NCBI GenBank assembly: GCA_028598975.1
Contig: JAQRMU010000072.1
Span: forward strand, 1 to 52,629
Length of the DNA: 52,629 nucleotides
Direction: 5' to 3'
Source: Gammaproteobacteria bacterium
Lineage (GTDB): Bacteria; Pseudomonadota; Gammaproteobacteria; Nitrosococcales; Methylophagaceae
Of this stretch, positions 22,228 to 50,810 are shown in pieces; position 1 is the first letter of the stretch, and each line of letters begins with the position of its first letter. The notes beneath the pieces were generated by a model. The model was not told the origin of the DNA. It ran no database searches and saw nothing but the letters and a program-made list of their open reading frames with translations. Made by a program: the position numbers and the translations under genes.

Positions 22228-23157
22228 TCAGCTACGAATAAACCTAAATGGTAAGTAGAGTAAGACTAAGAGTAATAAGGCAATACTTGCAAACCATGGT
22301 GCCCAATTGTAATTAACAATTTGATCACGTGTTTCTACTTTGTTTTCCAATGCATCAATCACTACATTTGATTCTTCTGGTGATAAAACAGCATCAAAAT
22401 CCAACATCTTTGCAAGTCGTTGTATATGCGCCTTTTTCTGTGCTGATAAATGTTCAGTTTTAGGTCGAGCGGCTCGCATTTCTGCTGAGTCACTTCGCAG
22501 TGAGGCATAAACATCTTCATGTAATACTTCACCTTGTTTCCAGAAACCATCAGCTGTGCCATCAAACTTATGTTTAGGAATAGGTAATAGTTCATCCCCG
22601 CCCACACCAACAAAGATCCCAGTGACTCCATCAAATTTCTTTTTGTATTTAGGGTATAGCGTCTCATGCAATGGCGGTGCTTCATGTCCATCGGTAATGA
22701 ACACGACATCAGGACTAGGATCCATAAGTTTTGCTTGATCAATAGCACCAAATGCCGCTTTCGATACTTCACTTGATAATGCCCATGCTATCGAGCCATG
22801 AATTTTTGACAACATTTGCGTTAGATCGTTATAGCTTGCACACACTTCTACAGGGTTCATTAACACTAAGCTACGTGACTCACTAAATGCAGCTAAGCCC
22901 ACATGTGAACCACAGGGCAGTTTTTGTAAGGTTTTCTTAGTGTAGTCTTTTGCCCATGTCAAGCGACTCACTGTTTCACCATTTAATTCAACATCACTTA
23001 CATCCATACTTTGAGTGATATCAAGTACAAACAGTAAATCCATTACTTTTACGCTGCGTTCTGTACGAGGAAATACTAATGCTAATAGGATCAATACCAT
23101 GATTATCAGCATTAAAAATGCTGAAGCTGTGATACGTGATTGATAGGATAGTTTCAT
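22228..23157 (-). CDS. mxaL: MxaL, VWA-domain methanol dehydrogenase accessory protein
   Basis: A 309-residue membrane-anchored von Willebrand A protein. One transmembrane helix (about 11-29) is followed by the MIDAS motif FVLDITQSMDV (D46, T48, S50), and a second helix lies at the C-terminus (about 290-305). It is last in the run mxaR-S-A-C-K-L, which in methylotrophs is needed for assembling calcium-dependent methanol dehydrogenase. Its exact role, perhaps calcium insertion, is inferred from the family. Its ATG overlaps the mxaK stop. The intact D-x-T-x-S argues for metal binding. Confidence 0.85.
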   Translation of the reverse strand: MKLSYQSRITASAFLMLIIMVLILLALVFPRTERSVKVMDLLFVLDITQSMDVSDVELNGETVSRLTWAKDYTKKTLQKLPCGSHVGLAAFSESRSLVLMNPVEVCASYNDLTQMLSKIHGSIAWALSSEVSKAAFGAIDQAKLMDPSPDVVFITDGHEAPPLHETLYPKYKKKFDGVTGIFVGVGGDELLPIPKHKFDGTADGFWKQGEVLHEDVYASLRSDSAEMRAARPKTEHLSAQKKAHIQRLAKMLDFDAVLSPEESNVVIDALENKVETRDQIVNYNWAPWFASIALLLLVLLYLPFRFIRS

Positions 23158-23696
23158 GGTAAATCAACTCTAAAGCCAACTGCTTTAACAATAACCTGTG
23201 ATGAGCCCTTTTTCCCCCATTCAGATTGTCCCATTTCCCCAGCTTCTTCTGGATCTAACAATAATGCATACTCCAAGTTAAAGCGTGCATTCCAAAGGGA
23301 TGAGTCAATCAATAGTGCATTTCGGTAATCTTGTTTTGCTAGCCCAAGTAATGCTGCTCGTCCGGTATCCGCCGGTGGTAAAGAGACTACTTCTCGTAGG
23401 TGTATATTTGCTCGATTAAAGTATGCAGCGGCCTCAAGCACAGGATCAACTGTTGTGAGTGCTGTCGTTAAACGCTCTAGTGCTTTATCTGAGTGTCCAT
23501 TCTCGGCATCATCAAAGGCTTTTGCGAACTGCGCTTTTTTATGTTCAGGAACCTGTTCAATCTCACTTGGGTTACTAATAAAACTATTCAACTTATTAGT
23601 TTGCGACAATGTCCAACCTGCGTGTCCCGCGCCCAATGTACTTGCTCCTGCAATGGCAACTAAAGCCCAATGCGCTATATGTAATGAATTAATCAT
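23154..23696 (-). CDS. mxaK: MxaK, methanol dehydrogenase accessory protein
   Basis: A 180-residue protein with an N-terminal transmembrane segment (about 8-28, HWALVAIAGASTLGAGHAGW) and a helical, TPR-like periplasmic part (AYFNRANIHLREVV; DYRNALLIDSSLWNARFNLEYALLL). MxaK is poorly conserved, so the assignment rests on size, topology and position between mxaC and mxaL, both of which it overlaps by a few bases. Confidence 0.8.
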   Translation of the reverse strand: MINSLHIAHWALVAIAGASTLGAGHAGWTLSQTNKLNSFISNPSEIEQVPEHKKAQFAKAFDDAENGHSDKALERLTTALTTVDPVLEAAAYFNRANIHLREVVSLPPADTGRAALLGLAKQDYRNALLIDSSLWNARFNLEYALLLDPEEAGEMGQSEWGKKGSSQVIVKAVGFRVDLP

Positions 23697-24708
23697 GTGC
23701 TTTTCTCACTCCCCATGCTGTATAAAATTGTGCAAAAACCAATGCCAACATGGTTATCAATGCAAGCCAAAAAAACGGCTCTGTTTTATTCTCACGTGGA
23801 ACAATCTCTTCCACAATTAAGGTTTGATCTTGCTGCTCATCAATCGTATCAATTGCTTCGGAAAAGCTTTTTACTGATTCAATTTCAAATACACGATATG
23901 GGATGGCCAATTCTTTAAAGAATTTATGCAATTTCTTTTCAGGTGTATTTTTCCATGAATCATCTTCACTTTCTTCTTCAATACTTAAGCCTGTTGTTGA
24001 ACGCATATAAATCCAATAAAGTCTTAAATTTTCGACTTTATATAGCTCTGTAATCTTTTGTTTGTCTTCCTCGCTAAATTCTTGCCCACCATCAGACACG
24101 AGTAACACTGTTCGAGAACCGTGATAATCTTCTTTGCTATACATTTCTGCAGCTTTAATCATTGCTTTGGCAATATTAGTCTCGGATAAACCTTTACCTA
24201 ATGCACTGGCATTAATTGTCGCAACAACAGATTTTTTGTTATAGGTTAAAGGCAATAAATCTAATGCCTTATCACTAAACAATACAAAACCAAAACGATT
24301 ATCAGGCCGTTTATCAACAAACTCTAATAAGTATTTCTTCGCAATGCGGCGCTTACTGTCACCCTTCCCAACCGTACGGTTAACCGCTAAGGCTTTACCT
24401 CTAGTGGAAAATGGATCATCCATACTACGACTACGATCGACCAAGATCACAACTTCAGCCCCTTTACCAACACGTTCAACCTTTTTCTCTGGAACATGTG
24501 GCCCTGCAAGCGTAAAGATAAGGCTTGCGACCACCAGTGATGCAAGTATTTTGAGGCTTAAGCCAATAACATTAGAAATAGGATCGGCAGGAACAAAGTG
24601 GCTCCATGCCACTGTCTTATCTTGGTTATGTGTAAACCAAGGGAGTAAAGCCAGTGGCAATAGCAACAGTACTGTTGGTAATGCCCACTGTAATCCAAAA
24701 AATGTCAT
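23689..24708 (-). CDS. mxaC: MxaC, VWA-domain methanol dehydrogenase accessory protein
   Basis: A 339-residue VWA membrane protein. Two N-terminal helices (about 10-24 and 48-67) precede the MIDAS motif VILVDRSRSMDD (D91, S93, S95), and a C-terminal helix lies near 313-331. I start at the ATG at 24708 because it overlaps the mxaA stop in ATGA form. An alternative start 8 codons upstream would lie within mxaA. A close paralogue is encoded at 31055-32071. Role: MDH maturation, known from genetics of the family rather than biochemistry. Confidence 0.87.
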   Translation of the reverse strand: MTFFGLQWALPTVLLLLPLALLPWFTHNQDKTVAWSHFVPADPISNVIGLSLKILASLVVASLIFTLAGPHVPEKKVERVGKGAEVVILVDRSRSMDDPFSTRGKALAVNRTVGKGDSKRRIAKKYLLEFVDKRPDNRFGFVLFSDKALDLLPLTYNKKSVVATINASALGKGLSETNIAKAMIKAAEMYSKEDYHGSRTVLLVSDGGQEFSEEDKQKITELYKVENLRLYWIYMRSTTGLSIEEESEDDSWKNTPEKKLHKFFKELAIPYRVFEIESVKSFSEAIDTIDEQQDQTLIVEEIVPRENKTEPFFWLALITMLALVFAQFYTAWGVRKAHD

Positions 24709-25688
24709 GCGAGCATCTCCTTGGAACGACATGCTTTGGCTAATTTTTTAATCATATCCATATCAGGTTCTTGCCCTGACTGTCTGGCAAAGAAGTGTTG
24801 CTCTGATTGGTGATAAAACGCTTTAATGTCTTCTTGCAATGGTGCTAACCATGGATAATTTTCTAATAGTTTATCTATTTCACCGTAAACAACGATGGTG
24901 TTTGATGTCTGATTAAATGCCGTGTGCAAAATACGTGAGGCTTGATCAGGTGTCGCTGAACGTTTCCATTTTAATCGACCTAAATCATGCACAGCCTGAG
25001 AAAATGGTGCACGGTTCTTTGTTTTCCAACCAAAATGCCATGCCATCAATAATAGCCATGAAATGATGGCAATGAGTGAATAACGTTTTAAGTCACTTGT
25101 AACCTCTGTTATTGAAATAATGGTCGGTGCAATATCCTCTTTGATTTCGATATTACTCAGTCCTTCACTCGCAGCTAAAGACGGGCCTATCATCAGAGGC
25201 ATAGCTGGAATTACCAGCCAATGTTCATCATTTTGTTTAATATCAAATGTCGGTGTTTCCACTGAGGTGTTTTTAGCGGGCACATTAATAACTTGATAAT
25301 GAAACACTAACCGCTGATCTGTTACATCAATACTTTTTAGATATAGCCATAAACCATAACGTTTACCCTCTTGAGGCAAACTAGATTCATTGATGCCTGA
25401 TTCTAATGTGCTGGTATCAGCTATCACCGTTAATTCATCACCGAGCAACAAGCCCCATGCGCGATCAACACTTACCATCAGGTTTTGGGACTCTGCCTTT
25501 TTCTTAGCAGCGGCCGCTTCTGCCAGTGCTCGGTCTTCGTCAGTTGGCACTGCATCATTTGCAGATTCAAGTTCAACAAGCGCTTTAACTTCTTGCCCTG
25601 TTTGTTCTACCTTGTCTTCCGCCATACACACATTGCTAGTGATACTAACAAGAAGCAGCATTACTAGATTTATAATATAACGATTCAT
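24705..25688 (-). CDS. mxaA: MxaA, methanol dehydrogenase accessory protein
   Basis: A 327-residue exported membrane protein. It has a signal peptide (about 1-23), an alanine/lysine/glutamate-rich linker (about 52-68), a periplasmic domain, one transmembrane helix (about 200-216) and a cytoplasmic tail with ILHTAFNQTSNTIVVYG and FYHQSEQHFFARQ, which is the typical MxaA C-terminal pattern. In methylotrophs MxaA mutants make MDH lacking calcium. It lies between mxaS (1-base gap) and mxaC (4-base overlap). Confidence 0.85.
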   Translation of the reverse strand: MNRYIINLVMLLLVSITSNVCMAEDKVEQTGQEVKALVELESANDAVPTDEDRALAEAAAAKKKAESQNLMVSVDRAWGLLLGDELTVIADTSTLESGINESSLPQEGKRYGLWLYLKSIDVTDQRLVFHYQVINVPAKNTSVETPTFDIKQNDEHWLVIPAMPLMIGPSLAASEGLSNIEIKEDIAPTIISITEVTSDLKRYSLIAIISWLLLMAWHFGWKTKNRAPFSQAVHDLGRLKWKRSATPDQASRILHTAFNQTSNTIVVYGEIDKLLENYPWLAPLQEDIKAFYHQSEQHFFARQSGQEPDMDMIKKLAKACRSKEMLA

Positions 25689-25689
25689 G

Positions 25690-26562
25690 TTATTTCCTGC
25701 CTAAAAAGTAGTCTGTTAACTGTTCACCTGTCACATCACCATCTGTAAAAAGTGGCCTTACACGGTGTCGCATAAAGCAGTTTGTTAACTGTTCAAAATG
25801 GTCATCCATTGTTTGCTTCCAACGCTTCTTAATGCTTGGTCGCATCCAAATACTACGTCGCTCGCCTGTTTCTGAGTCACACATTTCTGTCCAACCAGCA
25901 TGAGAAGGTAAATGATTAACATCATCATGTTTCCAAACGATAGGAACAACCGTATAACGTGAGAGTTGTCTTAATGCCTTATCAACGGTGTCGAGATCAC
26001 AGCAAAAATCCGATGCAAGAAAAACGATGGCGTGTTTACTAGTAATCATATTTGCAGCATGAATTAAACCATCCACTCCTGCTGCTGGTGCAACCTCAGC
26101 ATCACGGATCATATCTGCCGCAATTATCGGCATGCTCCGCTGCCGCGTTGGCATCATGTAAACATCATGGCGTAAACCAGAGTCAAAACCAGCCAATGCA
26201 AAACGATCGCCCAAGCCAATTGCTGAATGTGCAACTAACTGAGTTAAGTTGGCAAGTTGCTCATGGTTAACATTTGATATGGCCATAGAACGTGATAAAT
26301 CAGCCATCATCCATAAGGTAATTGGAGAGCGCTGCTGATAACGTTTAACGAGGTAATTATCATTACCCGTTGCCATATTGTCTCGAATGCTTGCACGTAA
26401 ATCTAAACGCCTTGGATCAGGATAATCAAACAGATCAGAAAAACCTGCAAAGCTATCTCCTGTGCCTAAAGATTTACCATGGTGCACGCCAGGAAGGCTG
26501 CCATACACCTTGTGAGGATAGCGATAGCTAAACTCATCTTGTCTATTTTTATTTTCACTCAT
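25690..26562 (-). CDS. mxaS: MxaS, DUF58 family protein
   Basis: A 290-residue soluble DUF58 protein with a degenerate VWA-like fold. Characteristic segments are LDLRASIRDNMATGNDNYLV (about 55-74) and ITLWMMADLSRSMAI (about 81-95). DUF58 proteins accompany MoxR AAA+ ATPases. Here the gene follows mxaR by 91 bases, with AGG about nine bases upstream of the ATG. Position and length fit MxaS of the methanol oxidation cluster. Confidence 0.85.
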   Translation of the reverse strand: MSENKNRQDEFSYRYPHKVYGSLPGVHHGKSLGTGDSFAGFSDLFDYPDPRRLDLRASIRDNMATGNDNYLVKRYQQRSPITLWMMADLSRSMAISNVNHEQLANLTQLVAHSAIGLGDRFALAGFDSGLRHDVYMMPTRQRSMPIIAADMIRDAEVAPAAGVDGLIHAANMITSKHAIVFLASDFCCDLDTVDKALRQLSRYTVVPIVWKHDDVNHLPSHAGWTEMCDSETGERRSIWMRPSIKKRWKQTMDDHFEQLTNCFMRHRVRPLFTDGDVTGEQLTDYFLGRK

Positions 26563-40301: not shown

Positions 40302-40710
40302 TCAGCTGCCTATCTGCTGTTTTCTAAGATGAGCTTCTGTATTGCGCTCTACTCGTCTAAGTAGATTGGAAACAGTTGATTGATGCCACTTACCACCACG
40401 GGCAGTTAGGATACCCAGATCATTCAGTTGTGAAGCGATACCTCTAGCACTGGTTACACCATTAGCAGATAAGCAATCTAGTGTCTCTCTAAGTGATTCA
40501 GCGAAAGCATCAGCCCCAGCTTTAACAGCAGACACAGCCTCAGCGTTACCACGACCCAACAAGTGTTTAGCTCCATTAGGATTGCCAAGCTTTACACCTC
40601 TAGCCTTTGCCGCTTGTAGCCCTGCCTTAGTTCTTTGGCTAATTGCTTCTCCTTCCTGCTGGGCTACTAGAGCCACACTCAATTTTGTATTTGCTGATAT
40701 GCCTTCTGAT
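40302..40710 (-). pseudogene. Serine recombinase (resolvase) remnant, C-terminal part only
   Basis: The frame encodes ALVAQQEGEAISQRTKAGLQ and AAKARGVKLGNPNGAKHLLG, then a C-terminal helix-turn-helix with GIASQLNDLGILTARGGKWH and STVSNLLRRV. This is the back half of a recombinase-family protein: end of the catalytic domain, hinge and DNA-binding tail. The N-terminal catalytic serine region is missing. Homology fades upstream of about 40710, where sequence belonging to an opposite-strand gene begins. It is a relic of a mobile or site-specific recombination element. Confidence 0.8.
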
Positions 40711-40992
40711 ACATACGACATCAAAGCGCTATTCACTACTGGTGCAAACGTCTCTGTTGATATTTGTGAAAGTGATGAAGCCTGCCTGTACGATGAAGAT
40801 GGAACAATCACTGGTAGTGCTAAAGCAATAGCCGCCATCGATAGTTACATGCTAACAGTACAAGAAGTACGTGCAGTAAAAGGTCAAATAGGCATCCTCG
40901 ACATTACCGAAACATCATCATCTTGTACGGGTGATGATGCACAATGGGTTCTCGTTGGCGATGTATATGAATGCCAATCAGTTCCTGATTAA
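40699..40992 (+). CDS. Truncated exported-type protein, unassigned
   Basis: The frame from ATG 40699 encodes 97 residues with four cysteines (ICESDEAC; SSCTGDDAQWVLVGDVYEC) and an acidic, secreted-protein composition, ending QSVPD. A strong intrinsic terminator follows at 41021. No signal peptide or Shine-Dalgarno is present, and the frame continues upstream into the antisense of the recombinase remnant. It therefore looks like the 3' end of a gene that lost its start at the junction. The paired cysteines near the end recall pilin-like or other disulfide-stabilised surface proteins, but I cannot assign a family. Confidence 0.5.
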   Translation: MPSDTYDIKALFTTGANVSVDICESDEACLYDEDGTITGSAKAIAAIDSYMLTVQEVRAVKGQIGILDITETSSSCTGDDAQWVLVGDVYECQSVPD

Positions 40993-41108: not shown

Positions 41109-41963
41109 TTAAGACTTTTCTTTTTCCTCATCTCTTACATCTTTTTTTATAGTTGTCAGCAACAAAGATTCTATGCGTTCTAAACGTTGCTCCATCAGTG
41201 CTGAATGTTCTTTTATCCAATGAACTTCACCCGCTTCACCCTCACCTGTTTCACGGTAATGTTCATCGTGTTCACGTTGCATGACATCTAAAATGACTCC
41301 AATCATCATATTCAGGAAGACAAACGCAGTGAGAAAGATAAAGCTGAGATAGAAGATCCAACTCAATGGAAATTCTGTCATTGTTTCATACATAACATCT
41401 GTCCAATCCTCAAAGGTGGCAACACGAAATAATGTCAGCATGGCAATAGAAATATTCCCCCATAAAACGGGGTTAATATTTTCAAACATAAAACTACCTA
41501 TGGCCGCATAAATATAAAAGATAATAAACATTAACAATACGATATAGCCCATTCTAGGTAATGCTTTGATTAAAGAGCTAATTAAAATACGTAGTTCAGG
41601 AATCACGGAGATTAAACGTAGTACTCTGAAAATACGTAATAGTCTTGCGAGTAAAACACTATCGTTCCCTTCTATCGGTAATAAGCTTGCGGTAACGATT
41701 AAAAAGTCGAAGATATTCCAACCTTTTTTGAAGAAGTCGAAGAACCGTGGTTCTGCTACAAGTCTAATCAGTATTTCAACCAAAAAGAATACGGTAATGA
41801 ACATGTCTAGCCATGCGACAACATTAGCCATGGTAGAGTCAATATCATAGGTTTTAGCACCTGTTATCAATGCTGAAAACACAATGATACTAATAACTAA
41901 AAACTCAAACAGTTTGTTTTGGTGAAGGTTAAATAATTGCAGTTTTAACTGTTCAACAGCCAT
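41109..41963 (-). CDS. Voltage-gated-type cation channel (BacNav/BacCav superfamily)
   Basis: A 284-residue six-helix ion-transport protein. S4 shows arginines every third residue (R107, R110, R113, R116 in LLARLLRIFRVLRL). The pore loop reads TLFRVATFEDWTDVMYE, with filter TFEDWTD at 183-189. A cytosolic C-terminal helix with coiled-coil character (HSALMEQRLERIESLLLT) follows, typical of tetrameric bacterial channels. Bacterial sodium channels have TLESWSM-like filters. The extra acidic residues here suggest calcium or mixed cation permeation. It fits a marine, sodium-dependent lifestyle. Confidence 0.9.
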   Translation of the reverse strand: MAVEQLKLQLFNLHQNKLFEFLVISIIVFSALITGAKTYDIDSTMANVVAWLDMFITVFFLVEILIRLVAEPRFFDFFKKGWNIFDFLIVTASLLPIEGNDSVLLARLLRIFRVLRLISVIPELRILISSLIKALPRMGYIVLLMFIIFYIYAAIGSFMFENINPVLWGNISIAMLTLFRVATFEDWTDVMYETMTEFPLSWIFYLSFIFLTAFVFLNMMIGVILDVMQREHDEHYRETGEGEAGEVHWIKEHSALMEQRLERIESLLLTTIKKDVRDEEKEKS

Positions 41964-46844: not shown

Positions 46845-46909
46845 AGCATTCCTAAAGTGTGATAAAAATAGAACTATTATGCCAAATTAAACACAGGAAC
46901 AGCACTGTA

Positions 46910-47437
46910 ATGACTCTTAAAATAATGAGCGATACCATCGATATCGAACCTAAACTAAGCGAAACTGCTGAGAATGAATTTTTACTTGAAATTGAGTCTG
47001 ATAATATTCAATTTTCATTTCAATTAAGTAAATTACAAATTCAAACACTGGGATTAAAATGTATTCAATCTATTCCTGAGCCTGATATTAACCCTCGCTT
47101 TAATAATATTGGAGAAGAAGATGTCTATCGTATTCCTCTACAAGGACTTGTACATCTAGAAGATCGCGAGATACAAACAATTCTACGTGAAGGCGATATG
47201 AGCGAGTTGGAAATATTTTTATGGTATATGCAATCAAATGAAGAACTAATTAATCGCTTTTTAAATAACATGTCTAAACGTGCAGGCGATATGATGCGTG
47301 ACGGTCTAAAATCTTTTCCTGACGCGCATCCAGATACCGCACCAATTAGACGACTAAAACAAGCAAGAGAAGCGACAGAAAAGCTTATGAAAGTCATTAG
47401 TCGCTTACAATCTTGTGGTGAAATTGGGCCTTTTTAA
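46910..47437 (+). CDS. Orphan FliG C-domain-like protein
   Basis: A 175-residue protein whose second half (LEDREIQTILREGDMSELEI; LINRFLNNMSKRAGDMMRDG; EKLMKVISRL) follows the helix pattern of the FliG middle/C-terminal domains, where LDDRAIQ-x-ILREVD and FLxNMSKRAAEML are conserved. The N-terminal half (about 1-65) is not FliG-like. I start at ATG 46910 with AGGA upstream. A GTG 17 codons earlier lies in the rnj-side promoter area. No flagellar genes are nearby, so a motor role is doubtful. Function unknown. Confidence 0.7.
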   Translation: MTLKIMSDTIDIEPKLSETAENEFLLEIESDNIQFSFQLSKLQIQTLGLKCIQSIPEPDINPRFNNIGEEDVYRIPLQGLVHLEDREIQTILREGDMSELEIFLWYMQSNEELINRFLNNMSKRAGDMMRDGLKSFPDAHPDTAPIRRLKQAREATEKLMKVISRLQSCGEIGPF

Positions 47438-47880: not shown

Positions 47881-49659
47881 ATGACCAATTCTAAACAAGC
47901 ACTCGGCATTACTGACGTCGTATTACGTGATGCACATCAATCATTATTCGCAACTCGCTTGCGTCTTGAGGACATGCTTCCCATTGCAGAAAAACTAGAT
48001 CAAATAGGTTACTGGTCAGTTGAAACATGGGGTGGTGCAACCTTTGATTCATGTATTCGTTATTTAGGCGAAGATCCTTGGCACCGTATTCGTAGCTTGA
48101 AAGAAGCGATGCCTAATACCCGTCAACAAATGTTGCTACGTGGTCAAAACTTATTAGGTTACCGTCACTATGCTGATGATGTAGTGCGTAAGTTTGTTGA
48201 GCGTGCAGCGATTAACGGTGTTGATGTGTTCCGTGTATTTGACGCAATGAATGACCCACGTAACCTTGAAACTGCAATTAAGGCCGTGCAAGAAAACGAT
48301 CGCCATGCTCAAGGTACTATTTCATATACATTAAGTCCTGTTCATGCTCTTGATACATGGGTCGATTTAGCCAAGAAAATTGAAGATATGGGTGCTCATT
48401 CTTTATGTATTAAAGATATGGCGGGCTTGCTTAAACCTTACTCTGGTTTTGAACTCGTTTCAGCATTGAAACACGCTATTGATATTCCTATTCAAGTTCA
48501 TTCTCATGCAACAACCGGTCTATCAACTTCAACACTTCTAAAATGTGTTGAGGCGGGTGCTGATACTGTCGATACTGCCATTTCAACTATGTCGATGACA
48601 TATGGTCATTCACCAACTGAAAGTATTGTTTCAATTTTTGAAGGTACTGATCACGATACTGGTTTAAATACAGAACTCTTAGCTGAAGTCGCTGATTATT
48701 TCCGTGAAGTTCGCAAAAAATATGCGCCTTGGGAAGGTTCATTAAGAGGTATTGATGCTCGAATTCTTGATGCACAAGTTCCAGGTGGCATGTTAACTAA
48801 TATGGAAAGTCAGCTACGTGAGCAAGGTGCCAGTGACAGGTTTGCTGATGTATTAGCTGAAATTCCACGTGTTCGTGAAGATTTAGGCTTTATCCCACTT
48901 GTTACACCAACATCGCAAATTGTAGGAACACAAGCCGTATTAAATGTATTAACTGGTGAGCGCTATAAATCAGTAACGACAGAAACTGCTGGCGTATTAA
49001 AAGGTGAATACGGTGCTGCTCCTGCCGAGTTCAATGCTGAATTACAAAACACAGTACTTGAAGGTAGCGAAGCCATCACGTGTCGCCCTGCTGACTTGAT
49101 TGAACCAGAAATGGAAAGGTTAACAGCTGAACTTCAAGAAATTGCTGAAGCAGAGAATATTCAACTTGAAGAAGGTGAGCGTGAAATTGATGATGTTCTA
49201 ACCTATGCACTCTTCACTCAAGTCGGCCTTAAATTCCTAGAAAACCGTAATAACCCAGATGTATTTGAACCCGTTCCAACATTGGAAGCGGCTGAAGCAG
49301 CCACTAGAGCACCAAGCGATGAAGAGGTTTATACCATTGCAGTCAATGGTCAAAGCTATGTTGTTCAAGTTAACGAAGGTGGTGATATTAGCAATATTAC
49401 TGCCGCGGCACCTGTAGCTTCTGCTCCTGCTGCATCACTAGCATCAGGTGAGCCTGTTACGGCACCATTAGCCGGTAATATTTGGAAAGTTGAAGTTTCG
49501 GCTGGTCAACAAGTTCAAGAAGGGGATGTACTCATTATCCTCGAAGCGATGAAAATGGAAACTCAAATTGTTGCTGAACAAGCAGGTACAATTTCATCAG
49601 TATCAGTTAAACCTGGAGACACTGTTAAAGTCGGTGATCTTCTTGCCTCAATTGCATAA
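47881..49659 (+). CDS. oadA: Oxaloacetate decarboxylase alpha subunit OadA
   Basis: OadA moves the carboxyl group from oxaloacetate to biotin. The 592-residue protein has the carboxyltransferase TIM barrel ([16 protein letters not shown] near residues 13-28; catalytic lysine region [13 protein letters not shown]; zinc ligands in QVHSHATTG), an Ala/Pro/Ser-rich linker (about 505-522) and a C-terminal biotinyl domain with EAMKMET (biotin lysine K558). It works in the cytoplasm on the OadB sodium pump. It needs biotin, and bioA lies 12 kb away. Confidence 0.97.
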
Positions 49660-49676
49660 ATAATAGAGAAGTCCAA

Positions 49677-50810
49677 ATGGAACAATTAGTAGCCTTATGG
49701 CACAACACTGGCCTATATCAAATGACACCTGGACAAGGTTTCATGATTGTGATCGGCATGTTATTACTTTACCTTGCCATCAATAAAAACTTTGAACCAT
49801 TATTACTAGTGCCAATTGGTTTTGGTGGCGTACTAGCCAATATCCCCGGTGCAGGTCTTGCTGAGGCTGGCGGTGTGTTACATATGTTTTACACTGTTGG
49901 TATCGAAAGTGGTGCATTCCCATTGATTATCTTTATGGGTGTAGGTGCTATGACCGACTTTGGTCCCCTACTCGCTAATCCTAGAACTTTATTTTTAGGT
50001 GCTGCTGCTCAATTTGGTATCTTCGCGACACTAATGGGTGCTGTTGCTTTATCCTATTTTGGCATTATGGACTTTAGTCTTGCCGATGCTGCTGCAATCG
50101 GAATTATCGGGGGTGCTGACGGGCCAACATCTATCTATGTCGCCAGTAAGCTAGCACCAGATCTATTAGGTGCAATTGCGGTAGCTTCTTACTCTTATAT
50201 GGCACTAGTACCACTGATTCAGCCGCCAATTATGCGTGCTTTAACCACTGAGTCAGAACGTAAGATCAAAATGACTCAGCAACGTGAAGTATCACATCGT
50301 GAGAAGATCATCTTCCCACTTTTATTACTGCTCTTAGTTGCATTTTTGCTTCCTGATGCAGCCCCTCTATTAGGTATGTTCTGTTTTGGTAACTTGATGA
50401 AAGAATGTGCGGTAGTTGATCGTCTCAGTAATACTACACAAAACTCACTGATTAATACGGTAACAATCTTCTTAGGTTTGGCTGTTGGTTCAAAACTAAG
50501 CGCCGATAAGTTCTTAGATATTACAACTCTAGGTATCGTAATCCTTGGTTTAGCTGCATTTTCTATTGGTACTGCTTCAGGCGTTATTATGGCTAAACTG
50601 ATGAATAAAATTGGTGGTGGCGGTATTAACCCATTAATTGGTTCTGCTGGTGTTTCTGCTGTCCCTATGGCAGCACGAGTATCGAACAAGCTCGGTTTGG
50701 AGTCAGATCCTCATAACTTCTTGTTGATGCATGCGATGGGACCCAATGTGGCTGGTGTAATCGGCTCTGCTGTTGCAGCAGGTATTATGATTAACTATGT
50801 TGGCGGCTAA
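49677..50810 (+). CDS. oadB: Oxaloacetate decarboxylase beta subunit OadB (Na+ pump)
   Basis: A 377-residue polytopic membrane protein that decarboxylates carboxybiotin and exports sodium. The signature [19 protein letters not shown] (about 142-160) carries the conserved DGPT of the sodium-binding region. [18 protein letters not shown] (about 319-336) and the C-terminal [19 protein letters not shown] are also family marks. It is slightly shorter than Klebsiella OadB. It ends the oadGAB operon at a strong hairpin. Confidence 0.97.

Follow-up and report, generated by a model that had tools for sequence, protein, structure and literature searches.

Acidic 'ancestor-like' members of the bacterial voltage-gated sodium channel (BacNav) superfamily were already described in 2020, and in the work on this AnclNav group four members were cloned, two of which gave currents (PMC7041947). 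NavPp from Plesiocystis pacifica, with the selectivity filter TLEDWTD, is Na+-selective (PCa/PNa 0.308), passes some Ca2+ and is blocked by external Ca2+; the block stays when the filter is changed to TLEDWSD, the TLEDWAD version has no inward current in divalents, and the D4G substitution confers divalent selectivity (PMC7041947). CavMr from Meiothermus ruber carries TLEGWVD and reaches a PCa/PNa above 200, which depends on both its Gly-4 and its Val-6, and the CavMr scaffold with TLEDWTD shows a value of 13.8 (PMC7041947). The same seven letters thus give 0.31 in one channel and 13.8 in the other, indicating that the scaffold matters. Selectivity was weak, with K+ and Cs+ also permeating, for TLEDWTD in CavMr and for TLEDWVD in either scaffold; channels from H. 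elongata and T. turnerae with NavPp-like filters were silent in insect cells (PMC7041947).

What an acidic filter implies is disputed: a 'beacon' rule predicts calcium selectivity, whereas the NavPp recordings show sodium conduction with calcium block. According to the review that formulates the rule, Asp at position 4 always produces Ca2+-selective one-domain channels, and NavAb given one Asp (TLEDWSM) is quoted as gaining about 100-fold in Ca2+ permeability; the review does not mention NavPp (PMC10120453). Elsewhere it is stated that selectivity can no longer be predicted from the charged letters of the filter alone (PMC8002053). Some BacNav and AnclNav channels have Phe at position 2, and NavAb L176F is described as lacking Ca2+ block (PMC10349818). 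The Na+ flux of NavRh is reported to be blocked by periplasmic Ca2+ (PMC4444806, citing a 2012 paper). A literature search of running text turned up TLEDWTD in two papers and FEDWTD in none.

Here we describe a channel gene with the filter TFEDWTD in the window, that is, the whole 52,629-nucleotide stretch analysed. The relevant features are as follows.

41109..41963, minus strand: complete gene (284 aa) for a one-domain voltage-gated cation channel (open reading frame, PF00520, relatives, AlphaFold2)
41616..41645, minus strand: S4 gating charges R107, R110, R113 and R116 (residues 107-116)
41424..41426, minus strand: P1-helix Arg180, three residues ahead of filter Thr183 (alignment of homolog rows)
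41397..41417, minus strand: selectivity filter TFEDWTD, residues 183-189 (sequence and alignments)
41373..41405, minus strand: P2 helix, residues 187-197, including Tyr192, with a loop one residue shorter (modelled helix, alignment, spacing)
41247..41363, minus strand: S6 and neck, residues 201-239, including conserved Asn218 (modelled helix; Asn218 in 97 of 97 TFEDWTD rows)
41115..41237, minus strand: C-terminal helix, residues 243-283 (modelled helix)
47881..50810, plus strand: Na+-pumping oxaloacetate decarboxylase alpha and beta, about 6 kb from the channel (PF02436, PF03977)

The frame starts with ATG and is intact over its 284 residues. A Pfam search of the protein matched Ion_trans (PF00520) at residues 17-232 (3.6e-45), and no NCBIfam model matched it at 0.001. 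The features of a one-domain BacNav are present, namely Ion_trans, six helices, a re-entrant P1-filter-P2 segment and an S4 with Arg at every third residue, as the first-pass annotation had noted in counting four regularly spaced arginines. Its broader claim of a voltage-gated bacterial channel with an acidic filter is borne out as well: sequence and fold support an intact one-domain voltage-gated bacterial cation channel, with gating as a prediction. AlphaFold2 (25 sequences) returned a mean pLDDT of 73.7 and a pTM of 0.52, with blocks at 84-91 over residues 131-230 and at 59-73 over residues 11-120. Foldseek ranked NavMs first and NavRh second by E-value, whereas TMt was higher for NavRh (0.79-0.80 over its four chains) than for the listed NavMs rows (0.63-0.68); in a second structure comparison, NavRh (Z 16.9, rmsd 3.3, 209 aligned) was tied with NavMs and NavAb, and CavAb entries appeared in the same list. 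A PDB sequence search placed T-type calcium channels on top by summed domains and NavRh on top among bacterial chains. From family knowledge, the C-terminal helix is probably a tetramerising coiled coil.

The homolog sample comprised 195 distinct frames, counting that of the window channel; they were drawn from 210 of 217 loci, and the set leans to close kin. Their filters were TFEDWTD (97), TLESWSM (39), TLEDWTD (30), TFESWAT (6), TFEGW(T/S)(E/D) (5) and others (18). Because 25 aligned relatives are 57-87% identical to the window channel, pN is far below pS, and the filter letters are common to 97 of the 195 frames, the reading frame is not a chance one. In all seven pairs compared, pN was 0.07-0.18 and pS 0.72-0.82, a ratio of roughly a tenth to a quarter (with dS saturated in six of the seven), and by this measure the gene is under purifying selection. 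R107, R110, R113, R116, E63, N83 and D86 are each unchanged across all 97 TFEDWTD rows, among them that of the window channel; these rows were grouped by filter, so that the filter letters are invariant by construction and the other positions are not. Judged by these residues, the voltage sensor is intact. The invariant sensor and S6 Asn, together with the low pN, argue against an electrically silent channel or one with a non-standard trigger, a reading prompted by the two relatives that gave no current in insect cells (PMC7041947), and one that we consider very improbable. The nearest named relatives include Methylophaga MAGs. Within the window's genus, 18 of 29 genomes (own included) have a channel match and 11 lack one, some of the latter being 99% complete, and this patchy spread suggests that the gene is dispensable.

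The pore departs from that of the well-known sodium channels in more than its charge. The added acidic residues that the first-pass annotation had seen relative to TLESWSM are there, but one residue is also missing after the filter Trp. The distance from this Trp to the S6 motif is 28 residues in 96 TFEDW, 30 TLEDW and 5 TFEGW rows and 29 residues in 42 TLESW and 7 TFESW rows; it varies among nine rare rows (e.g., TFESW with 28 in one row, TLEGW with 29 in three or 28 in one), and six rows escaped the pattern search. Three positions before the filter, Arg is found in 97 of 97 TFEDWTD and 30 of 30 TLEDWTD rows and Gln in 45 of 45 ESW-type rows, while P2 position 192 is Tyr in the acidic types (97 of 97 TFEDWTD rows) and Arg in ESW-type channels. 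A published comparison with Nav1.2 notes an additional residue directly above the filter in other bacterial channels, as well as an Arg (185 in NavAb) close to the filter, and regards NavRh as the nearer template (PMC6152994). NavAb, NavMs, NaChBac and the engineered CavAb thus share the fold, S4 and S6 Asn of the window channel but differ by a P1 Gln, a position-4 Ser (replaced by Asp in CavAb), the extra residue after Trp and a P2 Arg (traits read from homolog rows, with the NaChBac letters read directly).

These differences bear on how far engineered channels can serve as guides. CavAb has Asp at positions 3, 4 and 7 on the NavAb backbone, whereas the window channel has Glu at position 3 and one residue fewer after Trp. 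With the shorter loop, the placement of the gap decides whether D189 meets NavAb Met181, a residue changed in CavAb; since the last Asp of CavMr has been aligned to Met181 (PMC12919392), the comparison at position 7 could remain valid with a gap placed further along. Transferring CavAb logic letter by letter to the TFEDWTD channel is unsafe, if still possible.

Phylogenetic analysis places the channel in the company of NavRh. In a first tree of 158 rows with the filter columns removed, the TFEDWTD channels formed one main branch, with exceptions, apart from a TLEDWTD branch and an ESW branch. A more careful tree of 63 rows, to which NavRh and NaChBac were added (rows thinned by identity, six long-branch rows dropped, root not inferred), put NavRh within the TFEDWTD branch (100/99) and NaChBac within the ESW branch (98/91). 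NavRh (PDB 4DXW) is the nearest solved bacterial channel by sequence, at 45% identity over 218 residues, and shares the 28-residue spacing, as read from a homolog (L192) that is 99.5% identical to it; it differs in its filter TLSSWE, with two Ser where the window channel has E185 and D186, and in having Gln in place of Arg180. In these unrooted trees the window channel sits apart from the NavAb-like and Bacillus branches, and it carries TFEDWTD rather than the TLESW of the canonical Na+ BacNavs. Its place in the trees and a filter more acidic than TLESW agree with the AnclNav definition. The likeness to NavPp and CavMr is one of filter letters, and most TLEDWTD homologs lie on another branch than the TFEDWTD ones. 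By the same yardstick of filter letters rather than whole sequence, NavPp, likewise a one-domain voltage-gated channel, is the nearest tested native filter found, differing by a single letter (Leu where the window channel has Phe), and CavMr is of the same acidic kind but has Gly where the window channel has Asp186. Phe or Leu at position 2 was rejected as a clade marker: L013 and L088 (both TLEDWTD) fall in the TFEDWTD branch, and L197 (TFEDWTD) falls in the TLEDWTD branch.

Our preferred reading, to which we give about an even chance, is an acidic, 'ancestor-like' member of the BacNav superfamily on the NavRh branch, homotetrameric and opened by depolarisation, that would conduct Na+, be sensitive to Ca2+ and discriminate incompletely between the two. 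By analogy with the family, depolarisation would move the four S4 arginines and open the S6 gate; ions would enter through stacked acidic rings (D189, D186 and E185) that may bind Ca2+ from outside; and the loop, shorter than in NavAb and CavAb, with Arg180 behind it, may yield Na+ conduction, partial Ca2+ permeation and Ca2+ block as in NavPp. This reading draws on the family assignment, fold and intact voltage sensor, on the behaviour of NavPp with TLEDWTD, TLEDWSD and TLEDWAD, on the exact NavPp filter in L013 (72% identical to the window protein), on the pore differences from NavAb-type channels and on the shared branch with the Ca2+-blocked NavRh. Against it stand the Ca2+ preference of CavMr carrying TLEDWTD, the 'beacon' rule, the TLEDWSM gain in NavAb, Phe instead of Leu at position 2 (given the absence of block in L176F), the mostly separate branch of the TLEDWTD homologs and the two Ser of NavRh at E185 and D186.

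The first-pass annotation had instead proposed calcium permeability from the likeness to the engineered TLDDWSD. A truly Ca2+-selective channel, in which the extra Asp ring would bind Ca2+ tightly and repel monovalents to give voltage-driven Ca2+ entry, is in our view unlikely. The rise in NavAb Ca2+ permeability with Asp at position 4 and the 'beacon' rule (PMC10120453), together with the value of 13.8 in CavMr (PMC7041947), speak for it, and a Na_Ca_ex-family protein in the genome would allow Ca2+ export; but NavPp with almost the same filter prefers Na+, is blocked by Ca2+ and was not rescued by CavAb-like strings, the Ca2+ determinant in the AnclNav group is Gly and not Asp (PMC7041947), and the loop is one residue shorter than in ESW-type channels. 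Thus, the case for a calcium channel as such is weak, and some Ca2+ permeation is nevertheless likely, judging from the leak of NavPp and from TLEDWTD in CavMr. Quite unlikely, too, is a poorly selective channel for Na+, Ca2+ and K+ whose role would be depolarisation and not the delivery of one ion; it would match the weak selectivity of TLEDWTD in CavMr and of TLEDWVD in either scaffold, with passage of K+ and Cs+, but not the Na+ preference kept in wild-type NavPp (PMC7041947).

Taken alone, the gene is an unexceptional representative of a group that is widespread. The earlier remark that such channels are little studied can stand, although the group is already named and includes members with recorded currents. 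When the class was sampled evenly, matches at E 1e-20 were found in 98 of 369 genomes, and the 92 matches read (in 82 of the 98 genomes) comprised TFEDWTD (35), ESW-type (30), TLEDWTD (20), TFESWAT (2) and other filters (5). None of the 17 unread matches was better than 2e-43; they are likely to be of the ESW type, which makes the TFEDWTD proportion given here somewhat too high. A phylum draw gave matches in 127 of 398 genomes. Two read channels were present in 10 of the 82 genomes (four with TFEDWTD and TLEDWTD, four with TFEDWTD and ESW-type, one with TLEDWTD and ESW-type, and one with TFEDWTD twice), and the co-occurrence of TFEDWTD with either of the other types suggests that the types are not redundant. 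The window's own genome (1.88 Mb, 99.64% complete) encodes one other intact Ion_trans protein, with TTVGYGD, which we take to be a potassium signature, and one remnant at a contig edge. This remnant (L003, positions 3-158 of contig 84) is open over 51 aa, comes from a second channel of the same family and covers the S2-S3 region at 42% identity over the match, being cut by the contig start with a stop soon after. Elsewhere among the homologs, a TFEDWTD channel (L068, 57441-58220) and a TLEDWTD channel (L134, 60702-61370) lie about 2.5 kb apart on one strand of contig C18.

The sodium pump that had been reported in the same window was confirmed as oxaloacetate decarboxylase alpha (47881-49659) and a Na+-transporting beta subunit (49677-50810), and no link between these genes and the channel was found. 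The genome also encodes, besides the Na_Ca_ex-family protein, MotA_ExbB-family proteins. In a cell that uses sodium, Na+ inflow driven by depolarisation and limited by external Ca2+ would make sense, though nothing connects the channel with these genes. A tblastn search at 1e-8 for eleven window neighbours (LexA, MetG, a recombinase remnant and others) gave no match in the flanks of 29 relatives (at most 5 kb per side, often less), and among genuine neighbours the most frequent family was seen in 5 of 30 flanks; with no conserved neighbourhood, gene context is silent on channel function. A mobile origin was considered and is unsupported: 36 of 72,556 plasmid records matched at 1e-20 (17 from Leisingera, 8 from Pseudoalteromonas), 34 of which were called non-mobilizable, and there was one weak phage match. 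A recombinase-like frame with a weak partial-domain PF07508 match (40302-40838) lies directly downstream of the channel gene. The window further holds a cluster with VWA and DUF58 proteins (22228-26562), reminiscent of Bat aerotolerance genes, and a 192-aa protein with a FliG C-terminal domain match (46859-47437).

Natural variation at position 4 extends the comparison beyond this locus. The TFEGW(T/S)(E/D) filters belong to five relatives (L026-L030) in Cocleimonas, Leucothrix and Thiotrichaceae MAGs, and each of the three trees places these Gly-4 rows (three of the five in the 63-row tree) among TFEDWTD rows inside the clade (support of 96 in the 158-row tree, 100/98 in the two later ones). 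Their TFEGWTE is near TFEGWPE of eukaryotic Cav1 domain III and TLEGWVD of Cav3 domain I, although eukaryotic channels combine four unequal domains in a single chain. The five are candidate native Ca2+ channels, a forecast weakened by NavAb with Gly at position 4, which is reported without Ca2+ selectivity (PCa/PNa below 0.01; PMC12919392). At L026, L027, L028 and L030, the Gly-4 channel has a lipoprotein-like frame next to it on the other strand.

Six relatives with TFESWAT (L031, L079, L080, L104, L105 and L106) combine a scaffold closest to the TFEDWTD channels with an ESW-type pore layout, in which P1 carries Gln and there is one extra residue. They form one group, which joined the TFEDWTD rows L020 and L103 in the 158-row tree (100); the single TFESWAT row of the 63-row tree, from which L020 and L103 had been thinned out, attached at the base (98/92); and the third tree gave them no resolved place inside the clade, with a long-branch warning. 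Another Ser-4 row, L185 (TFESWTS), has a separate place in the clade and retains both Arg180 and the short loop. An origin of the TFESWAT pores by gene conversion is unsupported, every segment in the four of six rows examined being nearer to TFEDWTD than to ESW-type channels, including the filter segment, which is short and leaves a small margin (61 vs 58% in L031).

It is possible, if on the doubtful side, that the TFEDWTD clade is a large family in which natural resets of selectivity have happened at least twice on a single scaffold: the Asp-4 channels would conduct Na+ with Ca2+ block; Gly-4 channels (TFEGWTE, TFEGWSE and TFEGWTD) would be native Ca2+ channels resembling one animal Cav1 domain; and Ser-4 channels (TFESWAT) would have acquired much of the canonical Na+ pore. 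With Asp, Gly and Ser occurring naturally at position 4 on related scaffolds, the 'beacon' rule becomes testable without engineered mutants, and this is the part worth pursuing.
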